56,161 nt of DNA from an uncultured Bacteroidales bacterium (GTDB lineage: Bacteria > Bacteroidota > Bacteroidia > Bacteroidales > Bacteroidaceae): assembly GCA_902801485.1 (NCBI GenBank), contig CADCIP010000019.1, positions 1 through 56,161 on the forward strand. The letters run 5' to 3'. Below, piece after piece: positions 447 through 41,523 of this stretch (position 1 is its first letter; every line of letters starts with the position of its first letter). The translations under genes and the position numbers were made by a program. Below the pieces are notes generated by a model. The model saw nothing but the letters and a program-made list of their open reading frames with translations, had not been told where the DNA came from and ran no database searches.

Positions 447-478
447 CTCCCTCCTTAAAGGGAGGGCGGGGGGAGGGT
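447..478. repeat. GC-rich palindrome (same family as the DUF559 element ends)
   Basis: CTCCCTCC-TTAAA-GGGAGGG followed by CGGGGGGAGG lies directly after the smalltalk stop codon. By eye it matches the reverse complement of the inverted repeat at 39902-39935 (CTCCCCTCC-TT-GGGAGGGG-GCGGGGGAGG) almost base for base. It could also serve as a weak terminator. Confidence 0.6.
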
Positions 479-488
479 CCCCAATCAT

Positions 489-4449: not shown

Positions 4450-5444
4450 TTCTCTATTGCATGTAATAACAAATCGTTTTCGGTCTTCTCTTGAACGGCA
4501 ATACGGAAGAAGGAATCGTCAAGCCCCTCGAAATTGCTGGCATCGCGTATCAGCAAACCATGTTCCTTTGCCAGATACTCTTTCAGGGCAGCAGCCTTGC
4601 CCATTCTAAGCTTACAGAGTAGGATATGGGTCTGCGAGGGCCAAACCTCGATACAACCCAGTGCAGACAGTTTATCAGCTACACGCTGTCGCTCATGCAT
4701 TAACTCGTGCAAGGGCAAACGAAACTCTTCGGGGTGACCTAAAAGGTAATAACCCGCATCTATAGCCACTTGGTTGACCGACCAAGGCATACGTTGTCGC
4801 CTTACCTCACTCAAAAGATTCTTATGAGCGGTAATATAACCCAGGCGCAAACCAGGAATAGCATATTCCTTGGTCATAGAATGCAACATCAGGACGTTGG
4901 GAAACATACAGGCTTCCGCAGCATTCAGCAAAGGTTCCTCTGTAAATGGTGCATAGCTGGCATCCAGAACATAAAGTGACTGGGGATGTTGCTGTATAGC
5001 CTGTATCAACTGGTCCTTATCGAGAACAGTCCCCGTTGGATTATTGGGATTGCAAAGCCAGATAAGTTGAGAATCGAGAGTGGAGAGCTGGGAGTTATGA
5101 ATGGAATGTATCTTATGCCCGTGAATCTGGCAGGCATCACGATACTCAGAGAATGTGGGCATGAGGATAGACGAACTCTTGCCCCTGAAAGTTTGGGCAA
5201 TCAGATAAATTGCCTCGGTAGCCCCATTGGTGACGCAGACTTCTTCGGGCTTTAAGTTCAACAATTGGGCAATACATTTCTCCAGACGGGCAGGCGCAGG
5301 CTCTGGATAAGAAACCACATTGTCCAACTTGTCGGCCAAATAGCAGAATAGCCCTTCATGGCAGAAATGATTATAGACATTGGAACTGAAATTGACCCTT
5401 ATGCCCTGGTACTTGTATGCGTCGTCGCCGTGTCCTTCAATCAT
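4434..5444 (-). CDS. cobD: PLP-dependent L-threonine-O-3-phosphate decarboxylase-like aminotransferase
   Basis: This fold-type I PLP enzyme (336 aa) probably makes (R)-1-aminopropanol phosphate, the linker added by CbiB. It starts GHGDDAYKYQGIRVNFSSNV, as threonine-P decarboxylases and histidinol-P aminotransferases do. CNPNNPTG is the cofactor/substrate motif. SMTKEYAIPGLRLGY holds the Schiff-base Lys. Assignment to threonine-P decarboxylase rather than HisC rests on its place between cobQ and cbiB, overlapping both (8 bp and 16 bp). A short in-frame heptamer insert (HNSQLSTLDSQ, coded at about 5065-5105) sits just before WLCNPNNPTG. Pseudomonas-style nomenclature calls it CobC. Confidence 0.85.
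   Translation of the reverse strand: MIEGHGDDAYKYQGIRVNFSSNVYNHFCHEGLFCYLADKLDNVVSYPEPAPARLEKCIAQLLNLKPEEVCVTNGATEAIYLIAQTFRGKSSSILMPTFSEYRDACQIHGHKIHSIHNSQLSTLDSQLIWLCNPNNPTGTVLDKDQLIQAIQQHPQSLYVLDASYAPFTEEPLLNAAEACMFPNVLMLHSMTKEYAIPGLRLGYITAHKNLLSEVRRQRMPWSVNQVAIDAGYYLLGHPEEFRLPLHELMHERQRVADKLSALGCIEVWPSQTHILLCKLRMGKAAALKEYLAKEHGLLIRDASNFEGLDDSFFRIAVQEKTENDLLLHAIEKWLCL
5065..5105 (-). repeat. in-frame heptamer remnant inside the cobD-type gene
   Basis: On the coding strand this reads as degenerate CAACTCTC-type units (CATAACTCCCAGCTCTCC...CTCAACTT), producing NSQLSTLDSQL. It is in the open orientation. Confidence 0.6.
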
Positions 5445-6903
5445 CGCTGGTCAGTATTTGATAGATTCGTTCCATATCCACATGCTGGCGCACATGGTCA
5501 GCCAACTTATTATACTGTTCCTCCTTGAAAGAGGCTGGGTCGGCGGCAGCAAATTCTATGCTTTTGACTTTGCCCTTTTCACTTAAAAGGTGTTCTATGA
5601 CGGACTGATTGTCCAGAAAACCATGAATATAGGTACCGATGCAATGTCCGGTCTGCATGATGGCTTCGTCGGTATCTGAAATGCCTTGATGAATCTCATA
5701 GCCCTTGCACTCCTGACCTTCGAACATGAAGGTTACTTGCTTTGTTGTCTTTTCTTTACCCATCGTAGTATGAATGGGTAAGAGACCAAGGCCAGGCAAT
5801 GTGGCAATACTGCCTTCTATGCCTTCCGGATCCTCAATCGTCTGCCCCAACATCTGGTAGCCACCACAAATACCTATTACTGTCCTGCCATCCCGGTGGG
5901 CTTGCAAAATGGCTTGGGCACAACCATTACGGCGGAGTTCCAGCAGGTCGTCCAACGTGGATTTTGTCCCAGGAAGAATAATAATGTCAGCCTGTATAAT
6001 GTCTTTGGGATTATTTGTATAAAAAAGATTGACGCGTGGATCACGTTCAAGCACATCAAAGTCCGTAAAGTTTGAGAGATGCAGTAACAATACTACGGCT
6101 ATGTTCAGTTGAGAGCTGAGCGTTGAGAGCTGAGCATTTTTCCCTGCAAGACTGACGGAATCTTCCTCGTCAATATAAATAGCTTTATAATAAGGTATAA
6201 TGCCCAGGACAGGTATGCCACAAAGTTCCTCCAACATACGCTTGCCCTCTTCAAAGAGCCGCATATCTCCCCTGAACTTGTTTATGATAATACCCTTTAT
6301 GAGTTTTCTGTCTTCGGGTGTCTGCAACATGATGCTGCCATAGACGCTGGCAAAGACACCGCCACGGTCAATATCACCTACCAGAATTATGTCCGCCTTA
6401 GCGTGCCGACCCATAGGCATATTTACCAAGTCAGTGTCTCTAAGGTTGATTTCAGAAATGCTGCCAGCTCCCTCCAGAACAATCGGATTATAAAGCGAGG
6501 CAAGACGGTCGAAGGCATCGCAGACTTCTTTCCTAAAATCCAGTTCCACTCCCCCTTGGGAGGGGTTAGGGGTAGGCTTTTTCCAATAGTCGTAGGCACT
6601 TTTATTGCCTATGGGCTTGCCGTGAAGCACAACCTGAGATGTATGGTCAGAGTTGGGTTTCAGGAGAATGGGATTCATATCCGTGTGGCAAGGAATACCA
6701 GCCGCTTCTGCTTGAACAGCCTGTGCCCGGCCAATCTCCAACCCGTCTGGTGTGACGTAACTGTTCAGTGCCATATTCTGGGCCTTAAAAGGAGCCGGCC
6801 GGTAACCGTCTTGTCTGAAGATTCGGCAAAAGGCTGCGGCAACAATGCTTTTGCCAACATCACTGCCTGTACCAACGAACATTATGGGATGAAGGGACTT
6901 CAC
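5437..6903 (-). CDS. cobQ: cobyric acid synthase (glutamine-hydrolysing)
   Basis: CobQ amidates four side chains of adenosylcobyrinic acid a,c-diamide using ATP and glutamine. The 488-residue protein has an N-terminal P-loop domain (VGTGSDVGKS, residues 10-19, then FKAQNMALNS) and a C-terminal class I glutamine amidotransferase-like domain (GICGGYQMLG with the Cys, YIHGFLDN with the His). It carries two repeat-derived inserts: PTPNPSQGG (coded at about 6549-6575) and NAQLSTLSSQL (about 6102-6136), both at loops before conserved blocks. It starts one base from the end of the ABC ATPase gene. With no upstream ring genes in the window, it may work on scavenged incomplete corrinoids. Confidence 0.93.
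   Translation of the reverse strand: MKSLHPIMFVGTGSDVGKSIVAAAFCRIFRQDGYRPAPFKAQNMALNSYVTPDGLEIGRAQAVQAEAAGIPCHTDMNPILLKPNSDHTSQVVLHGKPIGNKSAYDYWKKPTPNPSQGGVELDFRKEVCDAFDRLASLYNPIVLEGAGSISEINLRDTDLVNMPMGRHAKADIILVGDIDRGGVFASVYGSIMLQTPEDRKLIKGIIINKFRGDMRLFEEGKRMLEELCGIPVLGIIPYYKAIYIDEEDSVSLAGKNAQLSTLSSQLNIAVVLLLHLSNFTDFDVLERDPRVNLFYTNNPKDIIQADIIILPGTKSTLDDLLELRRNGCAQAILQAHRDGRTVIGICGGYQMLGQTIEDPEGIEGSIATLPGLGLLPIHTTMGKEKTTKQVTFMFEGQECKGYEIHQGISDTDEAIMQTGHCIGTYIHGFLDNQSVIEHLLSEKGKVKSIEFAAADPASFKEEQYNKLADHVRQHVDMERIYQILTSDD
6102..6136 (-). repeat. in-frame heptamer insert inside cobQ
   Basis: The coding strand reads GCTCAGCTCTCAACGCTCAG and then CTCTCAACT, giving AQLSTLSSQL. It is in the open orientation. 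Confidence 0.6.
6549..6575 (-). repeat. GC-rich palindrome inside cobQ (PTPNPSQGG)
   Basis: Plus strand: CTCCCCCTTGGGAGGGG, then TTAGGGG, then TAGGCT. It closely parallels the right inverted repeat of the DUF559 element (CCTCCTTGGGAGGGG, AAGGGGGAGGCT). It is translated in CobQ as PTPNPSQGGV. Confidence 0.65.
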
Positions 6904-31248: not shown

Positions 31249-32817
31249 TTAGGATGTAGGCTTCAACCCAATCTCTGCAGCTTTCTGCAACATAAACTGT
31301 CGGGCAGCATCATGGTCGTTGGGAATAAGAGAATCCCAAATGGCATCCTTGACGGCTTGCTTGAGGACACCAATCTCGCGACAGGGCTTCAGTCCAAAAG
31401 TTTCCATTATTTCCTCTCCTGTAATGGGATTCTGCCATGTGCGGTAGTTATCGCGCGCCTGAAGGTCAGCCAGTTTTTCACGTACCAATTGAAAGTTATC
31501 CAGGAACCGCTGTTTCTTCTGTTGATTCTTACTCGTGATATCAGCTTCGCATAGAGCCATCAAGTCATCTATATCCTCGCCTGCCTCAAAAAGCAAACGA
31601 CGCACAGCGGAATCTGTAACCTCTTCGTCGGCAATTGTAATGGGACGCATGTGCAAGCCAACCAATTTTTCGACATAAGCCATACGCTCATCCAGAGGTA
31701 ACTTCATACGACGAAAAATAGGGGCGACCATCTTCTGCCCTATATAATTATGGTTGTGAAAGGTCCAGCCGACCTTTTCCTCCCAACGCTTGCTGCGTGG
31801 CTTGCCTATATCGTGCAGGAGGGCAGCCCAGCGGAGCCAGAGCCCCCCTTCAACCTCCCCATGAGGAGGGAGGCTTTCTTTACCCTCTCCTTGGAGAGGG
31901 ACTTGAGATGAGGCCACATTATCCAACACCTCAAGGGTATGATAGAAGTTGTCCTTGTGGGCACGACCATTCCGGACCTCTACGCCTTCCAGCGCTGCCA
32001 TTTCGGGGAAAATGAGTGGGAGCAGGCCGCAACGGCTCAACTCTACAAACCCGATACTGGGGGTAGGAGAAAGCATTATTTTGTTGAGCTCGTCAATGAT
32101 ACGCTCCTGAGAGATAATCTTGATACGCTCCGCATTACGACTGAGTGCCTCCTGTGTCTCGTCCTCGATCTGGAAATGCAACTGGGTCGCAAAACGTATG
32201 CAGCGCATCATGCGCAAGGGGTCGTCGCTAAAGGTGATATCGGGATCGAGAGGCGTAGCAATAAGTCCGTCCTCCATATCCAAGAGTCCGCCAAAGCGGT
32301 CAATAAGCCGCTTACCATCTACCAGTCCCTCGGAAGTAAGACAGTAAGCCAAAGCGTTGATGGTGAAGTCGCGACGGTCCAAATCATCCTCCAGCGTTCC
32401 GTCCTCAACAATAGGCTTACGACTGTCATGACTATAGCTCTCCCTGCGAGCACCCACAAACTCCACCTCTTGGCCTTTCCACTTAACCTGTGCAGTGCCA
32501 AAGTTACGGAAAACACTCACGTGCGCTCCCTTGCCCAACCGTTTGCCCAATGCCTGAGCCACACGAATACCAGGCCCCTCATTGAAAGATGAGAGTTGAG
32601 AGTTGAGAGTTGAAAGGAGAGATTCGGTTAAGATTGAACACCTTGGCTCCACCACTACACAGTCTATGTCTTTTGAGGGGCGCTCTAAAAAGAGGTCACG
32701 CACATATCCGCCCACTGCATAACAGTAAAGCCCCATTTGGTCCGCCACCTCACCGATAGCACGGAACATAGGAGTATCAAACAGATGAGAAAGATCTTCT
32801 TCTGTTAGATGCTTCAT
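31249..32817 (-). CDS. CCA tRNA nucleotidyltransferase / poly(A) polymerase family with HD domain, bearing two repeat inserts
   Basis: 522 residues. The N-terminal nucleotidyltransferase domain has AVGGYVRDLFLERPSKDIDC (GG and DxD) and EDDLDRRDFTINALAY. The RNA-binding helices are at DPLRMMRCIRFATQL. A C-terminal HD domain has the histidines in FYHTLEVLDNV and WAALLHDIGKP. It adds or repairs tRNA 3'-CCA. Two stretches are repeat-derived. SLLSTLNSQLSSF is coded at about 32589-32625. SSQVPLQGEGKESLPPHGEV is coded at about 31841-31912 and lies between the first HD histidine and the LLHD motif. It overlaps the upstream lipoprotein gene by 4 bp (ATGA). All catalytic motifs remain. Confidence 0.9.
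   Translation of the reverse strand: MKHLTEEDLSHLFDTPMFRAIGEVADQMGLYCYAVGGYVRDLFLERPSKDIDCVVVEPRCSILTESLLSTLNSQLSSFNEGPGIRVAQALGKRLGKGAHVSVFRNFGTAQVKWKGQEVEFVGARRESYSHDSRKPIVEDGTLEDDLDRRDFTINALAYCLTSEGLVDGKRLIDRFGGLLDMEDGLIATPLDPDITFSDDPLRMMRCIRFATQLHFQIEDETQEALSRNAERIKIISQERIIDELNKIMLSPTPSIGFVELSRCGLLPLIFPEMAALEGVEVRNGRAHKDNFYHTLEVLDNVASSQVPLQGEGKESLPPHGEVEGGLWLRWAALLHDIGKPRSKRWEEKVGWTFHNHNYIGQKMVAPIFRRMKLPLDERMAYVEKLVGLHMRPITIADEEVTDSAVRRLLFEAGEDIDDLMALCEADITSKNQQKKQRFLDNFQLVREKLADLQARDNYRTWQNPITGEEIMETFGLKPCREIGVLKQAVKDAIWDSLIPNDHDAARQFMLQKAAEIGLKPTS
31841..31912 (-). repeat. GC-rich palindromes inside the HD domain of the CCA gene
   Basis: Two palindromic units: CCCCTTCAACCTCCCC with ATGAGGAGGGAGG, then CCCTCTCCTTGGAGAGGG. 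They are translated in frame as QVPLQGEGKESLPPHGEVEGG. They belong to the group that flanks the DUF559 ORF. Confidence 0.6.
32589..32625 (-). repeat. in-frame CAACTCT array inside the CCA gene
   Basis: About four CAACTCT units on the coding strand, giving LLSTLNSQLSS. The insert lies just before GPGIRVAQALGK, in the open orientation. Confidence 0.75.
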
Positions 32818-39028: not shown

Positions 39029-39904
39029 ATGATACAATCAATGACGGGATACGGAAAAGCCTCGGCCGAATTCCAAGGAAAAAAGATAAATGCAGAGGTA
39101 AAATCACTGAATAGCAAAGCGCTGGACCTATCTACCCGACTGGCTCCCATCTACCGGGAAAAGGAGATGGAAGTGCGTGCTCTTATCGCTCAAACACTAG
39201 AACGCGGAAAGGTTGAATTCAACCTGTGGATAGAACAGCCAGAAACTCAGAATGCAGCATCCATAAACGGTGAGTTGGTTGCCAACTACTACAAGCAGAT
39301 TACAGATATTGCCGAAAAATACGACATCGACGAACCCGAAGATATCTGGACCGTTCTGCTGCGTATGCCCGATGTCTTGAACAAAACAGATATTCAGGAA
39401 CTGACAGAAGAGGAATGGGCCGTTGCCAAAAGCGTAGTGGAGAAAGCCATACAGCAACTAACGGACTTCCGTAAACAGGAAGGCATGGCGTTGCAGAAAA
39501 AGTTCGAGGAGAAACTGGACAACATAGCTTCTTTGCTGGCCAGCATTGAATCATACGAGACAAGTCGTACGGAGAAAATTCGCCAGAAACTGGTAGATGC
39601 TCTGCAAGCGATTCCCGAAGTGGAATATGACCGTAACCGTCTGGAGCAAGAGATGATTTATTACATCGAGAAATTAGATATCAACGAGGAGAAACAACGT
39701 CTGACCAACCATCTGCATTATTTCCGTCAGACAATGGAGGAAGGCCACGGACAAGGCAAAAAACTGGGATTCATTGCGCAAGAGATGGGACGCGAAATTA
39801 ACACCACGGGCAGCAAGAGCAACCAAGCCGAAATGCAGAACATAGTGGTAAAGATGAAAGACGAGTTGGAGCAGATCAAGGAACAAGTACTTAATGTGAT
39901 GTAA
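39029..39904 (+). CDS. YicC-family endoribonuclease
   Basis: 291 residues. The N-terminal YicC domain starts MIQSMTGYGKASAEFQGKKI with VKSLNSKALDLSTRLAPIYR. The C-terminal DUF1732 has LEQEMIYYIEKLDINEEKQRL, HLHYFRQTMEEG and KKLGFIAQEMGREINTTGSK. YicC proteins act as RNases in small-RNA and mRNA turnover. A TACTTTTG box (39001-39008) may serve as -7. In many bacteria this gene is followed directly by gmk. Here the DUF559 element begins at its stop codon. Confidence 0.93.
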   Translation: MIQSMTGYGKASAEFQGKKINAEVKSLNSKALDLSTRLAPIYREKEMEVRALIAQTLERGKVEFNLWIEQPETQNAASINGELVANYYKQITDIAEKYDIDEPEDIWTVLLRMPDVLNKTDIQELTEEEWAVAKSVVEKAIQQLTDFRKQEGMALQKKFEEKLDNIASLLASIESYETSRTEKIRQKLVDALQAIPEVEYDRNRLEQEMIYYIEKLDINEEKQRLTNHLHYFRQTMEEGHGQGKKLGFIAQEMGREINTTGSKSNQAEMQNIVVKMKDELEQIKEQVLNVM

Positions 39905-40369
39905 TTAGCCTCCCCCGCCCCCTCCCAAGGAGGGGAGTTTAATAATTATTTTATATGAAGCGAGGTTACGAAACAGCAAATTGTTGGGCTTATGATTTGA
40001 TGCTTCAATCATCGAAAGAGAATCGAAAGAATCCAACAGAAGCTGAGAGTATCTTGTGGAATGCCATTCGCGCCTCTCAATGTGGAGTCCGTTTTAGAAG
40101 ACAACACATCATCGGAGATTACATTATAGATTTTGTATGTTTGTCGAAACAGCTTATCATTGAAGTGGACGGAGCATATCATCTAAACGAAACACAAATG
40201 TTGTTTGACGAACAGCGAAGTGACAAACTAAAACAATTAGGATTTCGGGTGATACGTTTAAAAAATGAAGAGATAATAACAAATGTTGACAGAGTCATGG
40301 ACAAAATAAGGAAAGAATTAGCTCATAATGGTTCACCCCTCCTTGGGAGGGGAAGGGGGAGGCTAATTA
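39902..40369. mobile_element. candidate DUF559 element with near-perfect 34-bp inverted repeats
   Basis: Left end (39902-39935): TAATTAGCCTCCCCC, GC, then CCCCTCCCAAGGAGGGG. The reverse complement of the right end (40336-40369) reads TAATTAGCCTCCCCC, TT, then CCCCTCCCAAGGAGGGG. That is 32 identities in 34. Each end also has an internal CCCCTCC-CAA-GGAGGGG hairpin. Between them is a DUF559 ORF, with no other gene. The outer TAATTA may be part of the repeat or a target duplication. The element lies exactly between the yicC-family stop codon and the first conserved residues of guanylate kinase. Confidence 0.6.
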
Positions 40370-40923
40370 TAGTTTCTGCCCCTTCGGGTAGCGGAAAGAG
40401 TACAATTGTACAGTATCTGATGAAGGAACACCCCGAATTTAGGTTAGCTTTCAGCATCAGCGCTACCAGCCGCCCCCCACGCGGCGAGGAGAAAAATGGT
40501 GTGGAATACTTCTTTCTCTCACCCGAAGAGTTCCGTCAGCGCATTCAAAACAACGAGTTCCTGGAGTACGAAGAGGTCTATCCCGACCGCTTCTACGGGA
40601 CCTTGAAAGAACAGGTTGACAAACAGTTGGAAGCGGGGCAGAATGTTGTTTTCGACGTTGATGTAAAGGGAGGATGTAATATCAAGAAGTTCTATGGAGA
40701 ACGAGCCTTAAGCCTATTTATCCAGCCACCCAGTATAGAGGAACTGCGTCGCAGGCTGGAAGGCCGCAATACTGACTCTGCCGAACAGATAAAGATTCGT
40801 TTGGACAAAGCAGAATACGAGATGAGCTTTGCTCCCCAGTTCGACAGAATCCTAATCAACGACGATTTGGAAAAAGCCAAACAGGAAGCAATCAGGATTC
40901 TGACAGAATTCCTAAACTCCTAA
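39955..40923 (+). CDS. gmk: DUF559 nuclease-like domain fused in frame to guanylate kinase
   Basis: 322 residues. Residues about 1-122 form a DUF559 domain (Vsr/PD-(D/E)XK-like fold): NPTEAESILWNAIRASQ, FRRQHIIGDYIIDFVC (Asp 59), LIIEVDGAYH (Glu 70, Asp 72), LKQLGFRVIRLKNEE. A linker SPLLGRGRGR (127-136), coded by the right inverted repeat, joins it to guanylate kinase (137-322): P-loop APSGSGKS (142-149), SRPPRGEEKNGVEYFF, FYGTLKEQV, FDVDVKGGCNIKKFY. Gmk phosphorylates GMP and is normally essential. No ATG, GTG or TTG lies in frame between the repeat and the P-loop, so Gmk must be made as the fusion, or from the internal ATG at 40297 (residue 115). Confidence 0.88.
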   Translation: MKRGYETANCWAYDLMLQSSKENRKNPTEAESILWNAIRASQCGVRFRRQHIIGDYIIDFVCLSKQLIIEVDGAYHLNETQMLFDEQRSDKLKQLGFRVIRLKNEEIITNVDRVMDKIRKELAHNGSPLLGRGRGRLIIVSAPSGSGKSTIVQYLMKEHPEFRLAFSISATSRPPRGEEKNGVEYFFLSPEEFRQRIQNNEFLEYEEVYPDRFYGTLKEQVDKQLEAGQNVVFDVDVKGGCNIKKFYGERALSLFIQPPSIEELRRRLEGRNTDSAEQIKIRLDKAEYEMSFAPQFDRILINDDLEKAKQEAIRILTEFLNS

Positions 40924-40950
40924 TGTTCAATGTTCAATGTTCAATGTTCA
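40923..40950 (+). repeat. ATGTTCA heptamer array that supplies the nadD start codon
   Basis: Four units of ATGTTCA, giving ATG triplets every 7 nt at 40923, 40930, 40937 and 40944. Only the one at 40930 is in frame with nadD. The first overlaps the gmk stop codon. Confidence 0.85.
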
Positions 40951-41523
40951 ATAAAGACTGGTCTGTACGGAGGTAGCTTCAACCCCATTCACAACGGACA
41001 CATCCAACTTAGTCAGGCCCTGCTGGATGCACGTCTTGTAGATGAGATGTGGCTGCTGGTTTCTCCGCAGAACCCCTTCAAGGTAAATCAGAAGTTATTA
41101 GATGATAATGCCAGACTTAGACTGGCACAACTGGCAGTAAAAGACAGAAACAACCTTACCGTCAGCGACTACGAGTTCCACCTACCCCGCCCTTCATATA
41201 TGTTTCACACTCTGGAGCATTTACGTCAGGATTATCCAGAAAGAGAGTTTATCCTTATTATAGGAGCCGACAACTGGGAACGTTTTCCCATGTGGTACAA
41301 GAGCGAGGAGATTCTGTCACACCACCGGGTGATAGTCTATCCAAGATCAGGATGCGAGCTCAAGAACATCCCTGAAGGCGTAACCATAGCCGACACACCC
41401 CTTATTGACATCAGCAGTACTGAAATCAGAGAGAAGATCAGCAACCCGGACTATCACGGCGAGGATCTCCCTCCCGCTGTCTGGGAAGAAATAAAAAAGA
41501 AGAAGTACTATTATGAAGATTAG
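40930..41523 (+). CDS. nadD: nicotinate-nucleotide adenylyltransferase
   Basis: NadD adenylates nicotinate mononucleotide in NAD synthesis. 197 residues. GLYGGSFNPIHNGHIQLSQ is the nucleotidyltransferase HxGH-type site. EMWLLVSPQNPFK, IGADNWERFPMWY and ISSTEIREKI (the ISSTxIR motif) follow. The first residues (MFNVQCS) are translation of an ATGTTCA repeat array. The codon ATA at 40951 stands where relatives have their ATG (MKxTGLYGG), so the natural start seems lost and a repeat ATG took over. It lies between gmk and ispF, overlapping ispF by 11 bp. Confidence 0.92.
   Translation: MFNVQCSIKTGLYGGSFNPIHNGHIQLSQALLDARLVDEMWLLVSPQNPFKVNQKLLDDNARLRLAQLAVKDRNNLTVSDYEFHLPRPSYMFHTLEHLRQDYPEREFILIIGADNWERFPMWYKSEEILSHHRVIVYPRSGCELKNIPEGVTIADTPLIDISSTEIREKISNPDYHGEDLPPAVWEEIKKKKYYYED

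Follow-up and report, generated by a model that had tools for sequence, protein, structure and literature searches.

What kind of element can place a nuclease gene directly at the start of guanylate kinase, and how do element and host gene persist together? The question is raised by a 56,161-nt contig of an uncultured Bacteroidales bacterium of the family Bacteroidaceae (CADCIP010000019.1, assembly GCA_902801485.1), whose whole length we refer to as the window, and in which a DUF559 nuclease gene bounded by inverted palindromes runs in frame into gmk. The source genome (G000) comprises 3.6 Mb in 85 contigs, is 85% complete and holds four DUF559 copies. From comparisons across the genus and beyond, we think it probable that the element is of a homing type, free of both intron and intein, which persists by means of translatable ends and the capture of gene starts. 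Loci and genomes are given below by L and G numbers where they have to be told apart.

The element is delimited by two inverted repeats of 34 nt, at 39902–39935 and 40336–40369 on the plus strand, which, as a preliminary description of the locus had it, match at 32 of 34 positions; they are 94% complementary, with a spacing of 400 nt. The left repeat consists of an outer TAATTAGCC tail and an inner palindrome; an inner, shorter palindrome capable of forming a hairpin is present in both repeats, in keeping with the hairpins described earlier, and as RNA the two fold only modestly above shuffles (z −2.0 for the left, −1.0 for the right). The motif TAATTA, itself self-palindromic, borders the element on both sides. 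Upstream, a yicC-family gene (39029–39904, plus strand) retains an intact C-terminus and ends at the left palindrome, its TAA stop codon coinciding with the first triplet of the repeat. The Vsr-like DUF559 nuclease domain follows at 39955–40332 (plus strand) and is marked by a Pfam match, aligned copies, a structure model and purifying selection. The right repeat is translated as PLLGRGRGRLI and forms the linker between nuclease and guanylate kinase, and the coding part of gmk (40363–40923, plus strand) starts within it (...GRGRGR-LIIVSAPSGSGKS); the domain match and comparison with unoccupied relatives indicate that the native start codon has been replaced. The described placement between the yicC-family gene and gmk is therefore accurate, with the yicC stop and the beginning of gmk each lying in a repeat. 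The resulting open reading frame (ORF; 39955–40923) encodes 322 aa, with DUF559 at aa 18–122 (whole-protein E 1.3e-31) and Guanylate_kin at aa 135–316 (2e-44), and is free of stops between them. These are its domains; no Y1_Tnp match was found within the ORF, and no Rfam intron at this copy.

Junctions without the element exist in relatives. Among the best 30 gmk loci, all from the genus, DUF559 occurs in three (L005, which is the window, L016 and L023) and is missing from 27, of which 26 are informative and one (L012) ends too near gmk to judge. At the unoccupied loci, yicC ends 14–127 nt upstream of the aligned part of gmk, which has a start of its own, for example ATG-GGG-AGG-CTT, ATG-AAA-GGG-AGG or other short N-termini; several of these sites begin ATGGGGAGG, similar to the right end of the element, possibly as its target or its scar. 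Since occupied and unoccupied loci are found within one genus, the insert is polymorphic at the gmk site. Two further captures of gmk (L042 and L080) came from the DUF559 search, giving at least five members of the genus including the window. Among named relatives, the one nearest to the gmk-linked copy is L105 in the uncultured Bacteroidales metagenome-assembled genome (MAG) RUG12069 (90%), which has the same fusion. An internal TAG in the gmk copy of G020 indicates decay. At two gmk loci free of DUF559 (L011 and L013), long N-terminal extensions resemble old captured leaders.

The preliminary description held that gmk has no separate start codon and that the enzyme now depends on the element. 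At the gmk boundary itself no start codon is present, and the start of gmk has been taken over; an in-frame ATG does occur at 40297–40299 (plus strand), within the 3' end of the nuclease, and translation from it could yield a Gmk of 208 aa that carries a 22-aa leader. Two sizes of Gmk are thus conceivable, the full fusion or the 208-aa form, and because the shorter one is possible, strict dependence of Gmk on translation of the nuclease is not established. In-frame ATGs occur 8–33 codons ahead of the right palindrome in all seven in-frame gmk fusions (7/7), in keeping with a possible start at such a codon. An internal methionine is found in 8/21 fused copies versus 17/112 (p = 0.03), too slight a difference for its conservation to serve as proof of a second start. 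A single gmk match was found in the source assembly when a second copy was looked for, within the 85% that is present.

The capture of gmk does not stand alone: more than 25 other host-gene clusters in the genus have been captured in the manner of gmk, as counted from the table of copies. The search of the genus gave 88 DUF559 places in 37 of 61 genomes, of which the best 71 were used (17 weaker ones, with E > 1.4e-26, were left out) and reduced to 69 distinct copies with enough flanking sequence. Further sets consisted of 75 loci from a genome scan (the best 80 of 582 confirmed places) and 26 of the best-scoring loci from a phylum sample, in which DUF559 occurs in 78 of 148 genomes. At a score of at least 16, inverted palindromic ends flank 64/69 genus copies, 46/75 scan copies and 11/26 phylum-sample copies, compared with 2/580 random segments from the same loci; at a score of at least 14, the corresponding counts are 65/69, 52/75 and 18/26, compared with 11/580. 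The expectation that palindromes would flank other DUF559 ORFs more often than chance allows is therefore borne out. Most genus copies measure about 450–690 bp, and the palindrome sequence varies from copy to copy, with the left and right arms of any one copy matching each other.

Most genus copies lie at a gene start, codirectional with the host gene. Among the 65 with ends at the lower score, 46 keep an open frame across the right palindrome that continues into the host gene, comprising six DUF559–host fusions and 40 separate ATG leaders; three more are open without a leader ATG and three are of other kinds. In 38 of the 46, more than 45 nt separate the palindrome from the next in-frame ATG. 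In the 38 separate leaders, out of these 40, that were measured, the ATG overlaps the nuclease stop codon in 22 (by exactly 4 nt in 13) and lies no more than 30 nt past it in 35, a proximity that suggests translational coupling of the leader to the nuclease. The captured host genes that score above the curated NCBIfam cut-off are cysS, leuC, argC, fmt, purD, der, mutS2, thrC and dTDP-glucose 4,6-dehydratase, with a tenth named gene, argininosuccinate synthase, falling below it. An element is present in the named strain Hallella mizrahii (L129), where the captured gene is argG-like, and this, together with the near-identical elements in diverged flanks described below, led us to reject MAG artefact or contamination as a general cause. 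Contig 16 of G075 carries two DUF559 elements (L040 and L078) at a distance of about 1.3 kb; of these, one is internal and in frame.

The replacement of starts can be followed in cysS and leuC, for each of which 30 loci were compared. Unoccupied congeners begin cysS with MNNQPLLIYNTLSRQKELF or similar sequences (MNNQPLLIYNTL-like), and an occupied one reads MEASGNAILPPTGGVREGLLIYNTLSRQKELF; unoccupied leuC mostly begins MKTLFDKIW or similar, and occupied leaders end ...GVSLFDKIW, ...GGSATLFDKIW or ...GSCLFDKIW. DUF559 is present in three of the 30 loci for cysS and likewise in three of the 30 for leuC; a further cysS locus, L280, retains a remnant of 17 aa. Palindrome-type leaders without an intact nuclease occur in front of cysS at L275, L279 and L280, and long leader-like N-termini without DUF559 in front of leuC at L326 and L329. 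These are presumably leaders that have outlived their nuclease, as the remnant supports for L280 and as resemblance suggests for the other loci.

In fold and sequence the enzyme resembles a homing endonuclease. Residues E31, D59, E70, D72, H76 and D85 are among those invariant in all 33 aligned DUF559 copies. A structure model with a mean pLDDT (predicted local distance difference test) of 85 is nearest to 3hrl, an endonuclease-like protein, and to the homing endonuclease I-Bth0305I (3r3p; template modelling score 0.78 by target), with Vsr weaker, and a sequence search ranks 3hrl and I-Bth0305I in the same order as the fold search (E 1e-4 for I-Bth0305I). Four PADLOC profiles match the protein of the window: DpdF (1.6e-6), a homing-endonuclease profile (2.9e-6) and two weaker ones. 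EDxHD is the name of a homing-endonuclease family, Vsr-like in fold, to which we take I-Bth0305I to belong. The ratio of nonsynonymous to synonymous divergence (dN/dS) is 0.14 (the window copy and L042, dS 0.39), 0.05 and 0.05 in three pairs with dS between 0.1 and 1, and 0.06–0.11 in four pairs with dS between 1.5 and 3.1, which places the nuclease, on these alignments, under purifying selection.

Movement of the element between species is visible in two informative pairs, obtained from a screen for near-identical nucleases over all copies. At the dTDP-glucose dehydratase gene (L101/L102), the elements are identical at 462 of 463 positions (99.8%) and the flanks differ by 12–13% within 300 bp; at thrC (L053/L067), they are identical at 574 of 578 (99.3%) and the flanks differ by 13–18% over the same distance. 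At the divergence of the flanks, 59 and 91 mismatches would be expected inside the two elements, versus one and four seen, and in both pairs the nearest flank mismatches lie about 9 to 36 bp outside the element ends. Near-identical elements in diverged flanks point to recent, site-precise movement between species, and both alignments thus demonstrate lateral transfer at the same site. At the left border of L101/L102 the upstream gene appears, by eye, to end within the palindrome, which would hold its final codons and its stop; a gene preceding an element may thus also receive its stop codon from it.

A nuclease tree built by a quick method (170 domains, 119 columns) carries 104 labelled rows from 26 host clusters. 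Host labels change 36 times on this tree, where 25 is the minimum and 200 shuffles gave 79–91. Nuclease lineages thus mostly stay with their host gene and switch it in some cases; the association may come from descent or from spread at the same site. The traits of homing endonucleases found here therefore comprise the nuclease fold with its conserved acidic and histidine residues, same-site transfer in two pairs, host-linked lineages and patchiness.

We propose that the nuclease most likely cuts an unoccupied allele of its host gene and that repair from an occupied copy would then write the element in, as in homing, with vertical inheritance between such events; both steps, and any role of the palindromes in mobility, are inferred from the comparisons above. 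The host would survive because the element is translatable, its GC-rich palindromic ends forming short linkers in the reading frame. Where the element sits at the beginning of a gene, the native start codon gives way to one of the element's own, often a leader ATG overlapping the nuclease stop, and the element in the window has taken over gmk; inside a gene, the element becomes an additional in-frame domain. Should the nuclease decay, the leader would stay, because it would by then be the start of the gene.

Internal copies, defined by a frame open for at least 40 codons on both sides, extend this picture beyond gene starts. They number 37 (27/75 in the scan, 9/26 in the phylum sample and 1/69 in the genus), so that 36/101 copies outside the genus lie in frame within genes. 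In Pfam searches of six of them, DUF559 lies within leucyl-tRNA synthetase, a second class I tRNA synthetase that we read as isoleucyl, a UvrD-like helicase, cobalamin-dependent methionine synthase, a CCA-type nucleotidyltransferase and MazG, and no intein domain was found in these six fusions. The reading frame runs unbroken from host through nuclease to host, and this, with the missing intron at the window copy, led us to reject the idea that ribosomes bypass the element or that RNA splicing removes it. In leuS, compared over a phylum sample of 61 genomes, DUF559 directly precedes TTRPDTIFG or an equivalent motif in G137 and G113 and sits at a different position in G133. Insertions into leucyl-tRNA synthetase and its class I relatives seem to occupy more than one internal position (L113, L182 and L211; L123, L139, L156, L170, L177 and L189, named by motif except for L170). 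Internal copies are also present in the cultured environmental Bacteroidota Flavobacterium and Winogradskyella.

In other phyla, eight plasmid loci were selected out of 39 matching records. Inverted ends score above the best of 100 shuffles in five of them, from Sphingomonas, two Deinococcus, Picosynechococcus and Pseudanabaena; the Pseudanabaena copy lies in frame inside a large gene, and the Deinococcus copies terminate ahead of their neighbours, unfused. Carriage by phages was considered and rejected, with DUF559 matches in 3 of 50,697 phage records at 32–36% identity in a scan that did not extend to the IMG/VR viral contigs.

Several observations weigh against a homing-type element. Only two of the compared pairs show lateral transfer; in L005/L042, L054/L176 and L096/L098 the elements (89–91%) are only slightly closer than their well-aligned flanks, and in L116/L142 element and flanks are both close, as in vertical descent. 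Tracking of host genes on the nuclease tree would be equally expected under vertical inheritance, and only 10 of the 26 host clusters are monophyletic on this quick tree of 119 columns. Of the 11 pairs used for dN/dS, two are saturated and two near-identical, and four of the other seven have dS of at least 1.5. At the sites compared (gmk, cysS, leuC and the transferred pairs), neither a clean target-site duplication nor an empty/filled pair at base resolution was found, and no target sequence could be defined at unoccupied sites. The ends fall under a score of 16 in 29/75 scan copies and 15/26 phylum-sample copies, reach 14 in only 19/37 internal copies, and are missing from three of the eight plasmid loci (Photobacterium, Azospirillum and Sinorhizobium). 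Lastly, 13 of the 65 genus copies merely precede an intact host ATG.

The palindromes also occur without the nuclease. With up to three mismatches, the palindrome core has five matches in the window versus 0.11 expected from shuffles, corresponding to three places because both repeats of the element match on both strands; these numbers, and the ends of the genus copies described above, led us to reject chance repeats. The solitary palindromes reported to match the repeats are indeed present, with their setting now corrected: a palindrome with tail at 6549–6579 (plus strand) lies in frame in cobQ, encoding cobyric acid synthase (ORF 5437–6903, minus strand); two at 31844–31900 (minus strand), the second with four mismatches to the core, lie in frame in a gene resembling CCA tRNA nucleotidyltransferase (ORF 31249–32817, minus strand), whose identity falls under the NCBIfam cut-offs; and one with tail at 448–480 (plus strand) lies in no ORF of at least 60 aa. 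Alignments of cobQ (30 loci) and of the cca-like gene (28 of 30 loci with the motif) both contain relatives free of the insert and other inserts at the same variable loop or loops, some of them palindrome-like in peptide.

In G000 as a whole, the hairpin-plus-tail pattern has 179 matches (overlapping ones included) versus 15 for the reversed pattern. Thirty solitary loci were fetched and 22 inspected once overlapping repeats had been dropped; 12 of the 22 palindromes lie at least 15 codons within an open frame of at least 288 codons, and three (L219, L222 and L239) are tail-less, chance-like matches. A solitary palindrome of G000 (contig C6, 484–510) shares all of its 27 nt with one end of the DUF559 element of L103, in another species. 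Solitary palindromes may be non-autonomous copies or relics. Inspection by eye of the tails of 64 genus copies shows GTAG in a few, without conservation, the tails being roughly AGRCC/GGYCT, and no CGTC tail was seen; we set aside a tail consensus, for which a loose motif is present in 57/64 right ends, counted without a control. An Rfam match of the palindromes to whalefall-1 lay far under the gathering score and was dismissed (PMC2864571). At L235, a locus with a solitary palindrome, Rfam matches below threshold (rli53 and microRNA families) cover 572–742, a GC hairpin region that is probably mere hairpin-rich DNA.

Such solitary copies are what would be expected of a unit like the repetitive extragenic palindromes (REPs) mobilised by REP-associated tyrosine transposases (RAYTs), the analogy drawn in the preliminary description. 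DUF559 would in that case act in a transposase-like manner, recognising the palindromes and moving both the whole unit and solitary palindromes, with selection tolerating in-frame insertions at gene starts. The layout agrees, with an inverted hairpin-plus-tail repeat on either side of a nuclease gene, the arrangement of a REPtron, as do the many solitary copies with their excess over the reversed pattern, the 27-nt identity to the L103 element end and the borders of the two transferred elements, which lie near the repeat ends. However, a DUF559 nuclease takes the place of the Y1/HUH transposase, the tail lacks a conserved GTAG, the ends vary with the host gene, and spread is between species at the same gene. 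Nuclease lineages largely track host genes across species, with no scattering, and both near-identical pairs lie at the same gene, without an identified target-site duplication; random insertion predicts neutral intergenic copies in both orientations, whereas most genus copies are codirectional at a gene start. Lineages tied to a host gene, together with two same-site transfers, are homing-like and unlike the genome-wide scattering of REP/RAYT systems. The idea of a self-spreading nuclease and palindrome therefore stands, as does the likeness in layout, while the mode of spread appears to be of the homing type; we regard transposition as in REP/RAYT as unlikely.

The palindromes might instead be mobilised by a RAYT or some other transposase, with DUF559 a mere passenger that profits from them. 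Y1 transposases above cut-off do occur in 17 of the 61 genus genomes, six of these with E < 1e-15, and G000 has two weak ones. However, 44 of the 61 genomes have none above cut-off, whereas DUF559 is present in 37, and it is DUF559 itself that sits between the palindromes. We hold DUF559 as a mere passenger to be very improbable; a RAYT may still contribute. Least credible is a domesticated regulator, in which hairpins and nuclease would form a vertically inherited translational control unit kept as useful in front of housekeeping genes: low dN/dS, the operon-like placement with coupled ATGA starts, the leader hairpins and several seemingly vertical pairs fit it, but a patchy distribution that leaves the same gene unoccupied in many relatives, near-identical elements shared between species despite diverged flanks, unrelated host pathways, positions within enzymes and leaders without nuclease do not.

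A homing-type element without intron or intein also differs in part from the systems it most resembles. It shares with the Vsr-like (EDxHD) homing endonucleases, such as I-Bth0305I, the fold, the host-tracking lineages, the patchiness and same-site transfer (in two pairs), and differs from them in having no intron or intein, translatable flanking palindromes, and capture of starts or residence as an in-frame domain. With the Rickettsia palindromic elements and intragenic REPs (PMC3733652) it shares in-frame palindromes in protein genes, here cobQ and the cca-like gene. That source, in the part available, covers REPs, intragenic REPs and Rickettsia elements, describes CGTC repeats that seem to lack a dedicated transposase, and names tyrosine transposases as enzymes, with no DUF559; it names no nuclease gene for the Rickettsia or CGTC repeats, whereas the paired palindromes here carry one and take over gene starts. 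A DUF559 domain in a Vsr-like nuclease, VsrA, has been described in Caulobacter (PMC12907096), where it is discussed with a solitary methyltransferase, and in the main text of that source, as available, 'palindrom' and 'inverted repeat' occur zero times. No published description of DUF559 with palindromes or start capture was found in a search that most subscription papers and preprints lay outside. Whether these copies constitute a new class of mobile element, namely an intron- and intein-free homing nuclease bounded by translatable palindromes that persists across Bacteroidota by capturing the start codons of essential genes, shares its kind of ends with relatives in Cyanobacteria, Deinococcota and Proteobacteria, and leaves in-frame palindromic peptides, its solitary palindromes, as a counterpart and possible source of Rickettsia-type elements, is in our judgement an evenly balanced question.

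At 40922–40952, 4.4 copies of a 7-bp tandem repeat, AATGTTC, overlap the start of a nadD-like gene. Each unit contains an ATG, and the gain or loss of 7 bp alters the reading frame, so that changes in copy number could shift or switch the start of that gene.

A homing element in an essential gene is generally held to require an intron or intein, or else a neutral intergenic spot. The element described here appears to sidestep this need by being translatable and by becoming the gene's own start, so that its deletion would be punished. DUF559 is labelled in Pfam as a domain of unknown function, and what drives palindromes into coding sequence has been an open question since the Rickettsia elements. 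If our reading is true, it would point to a role of the DUF559 family and to a driver of the invading palindromes, and would account for the odd N-terminal extensions and inserts of many housekeeping proteins.

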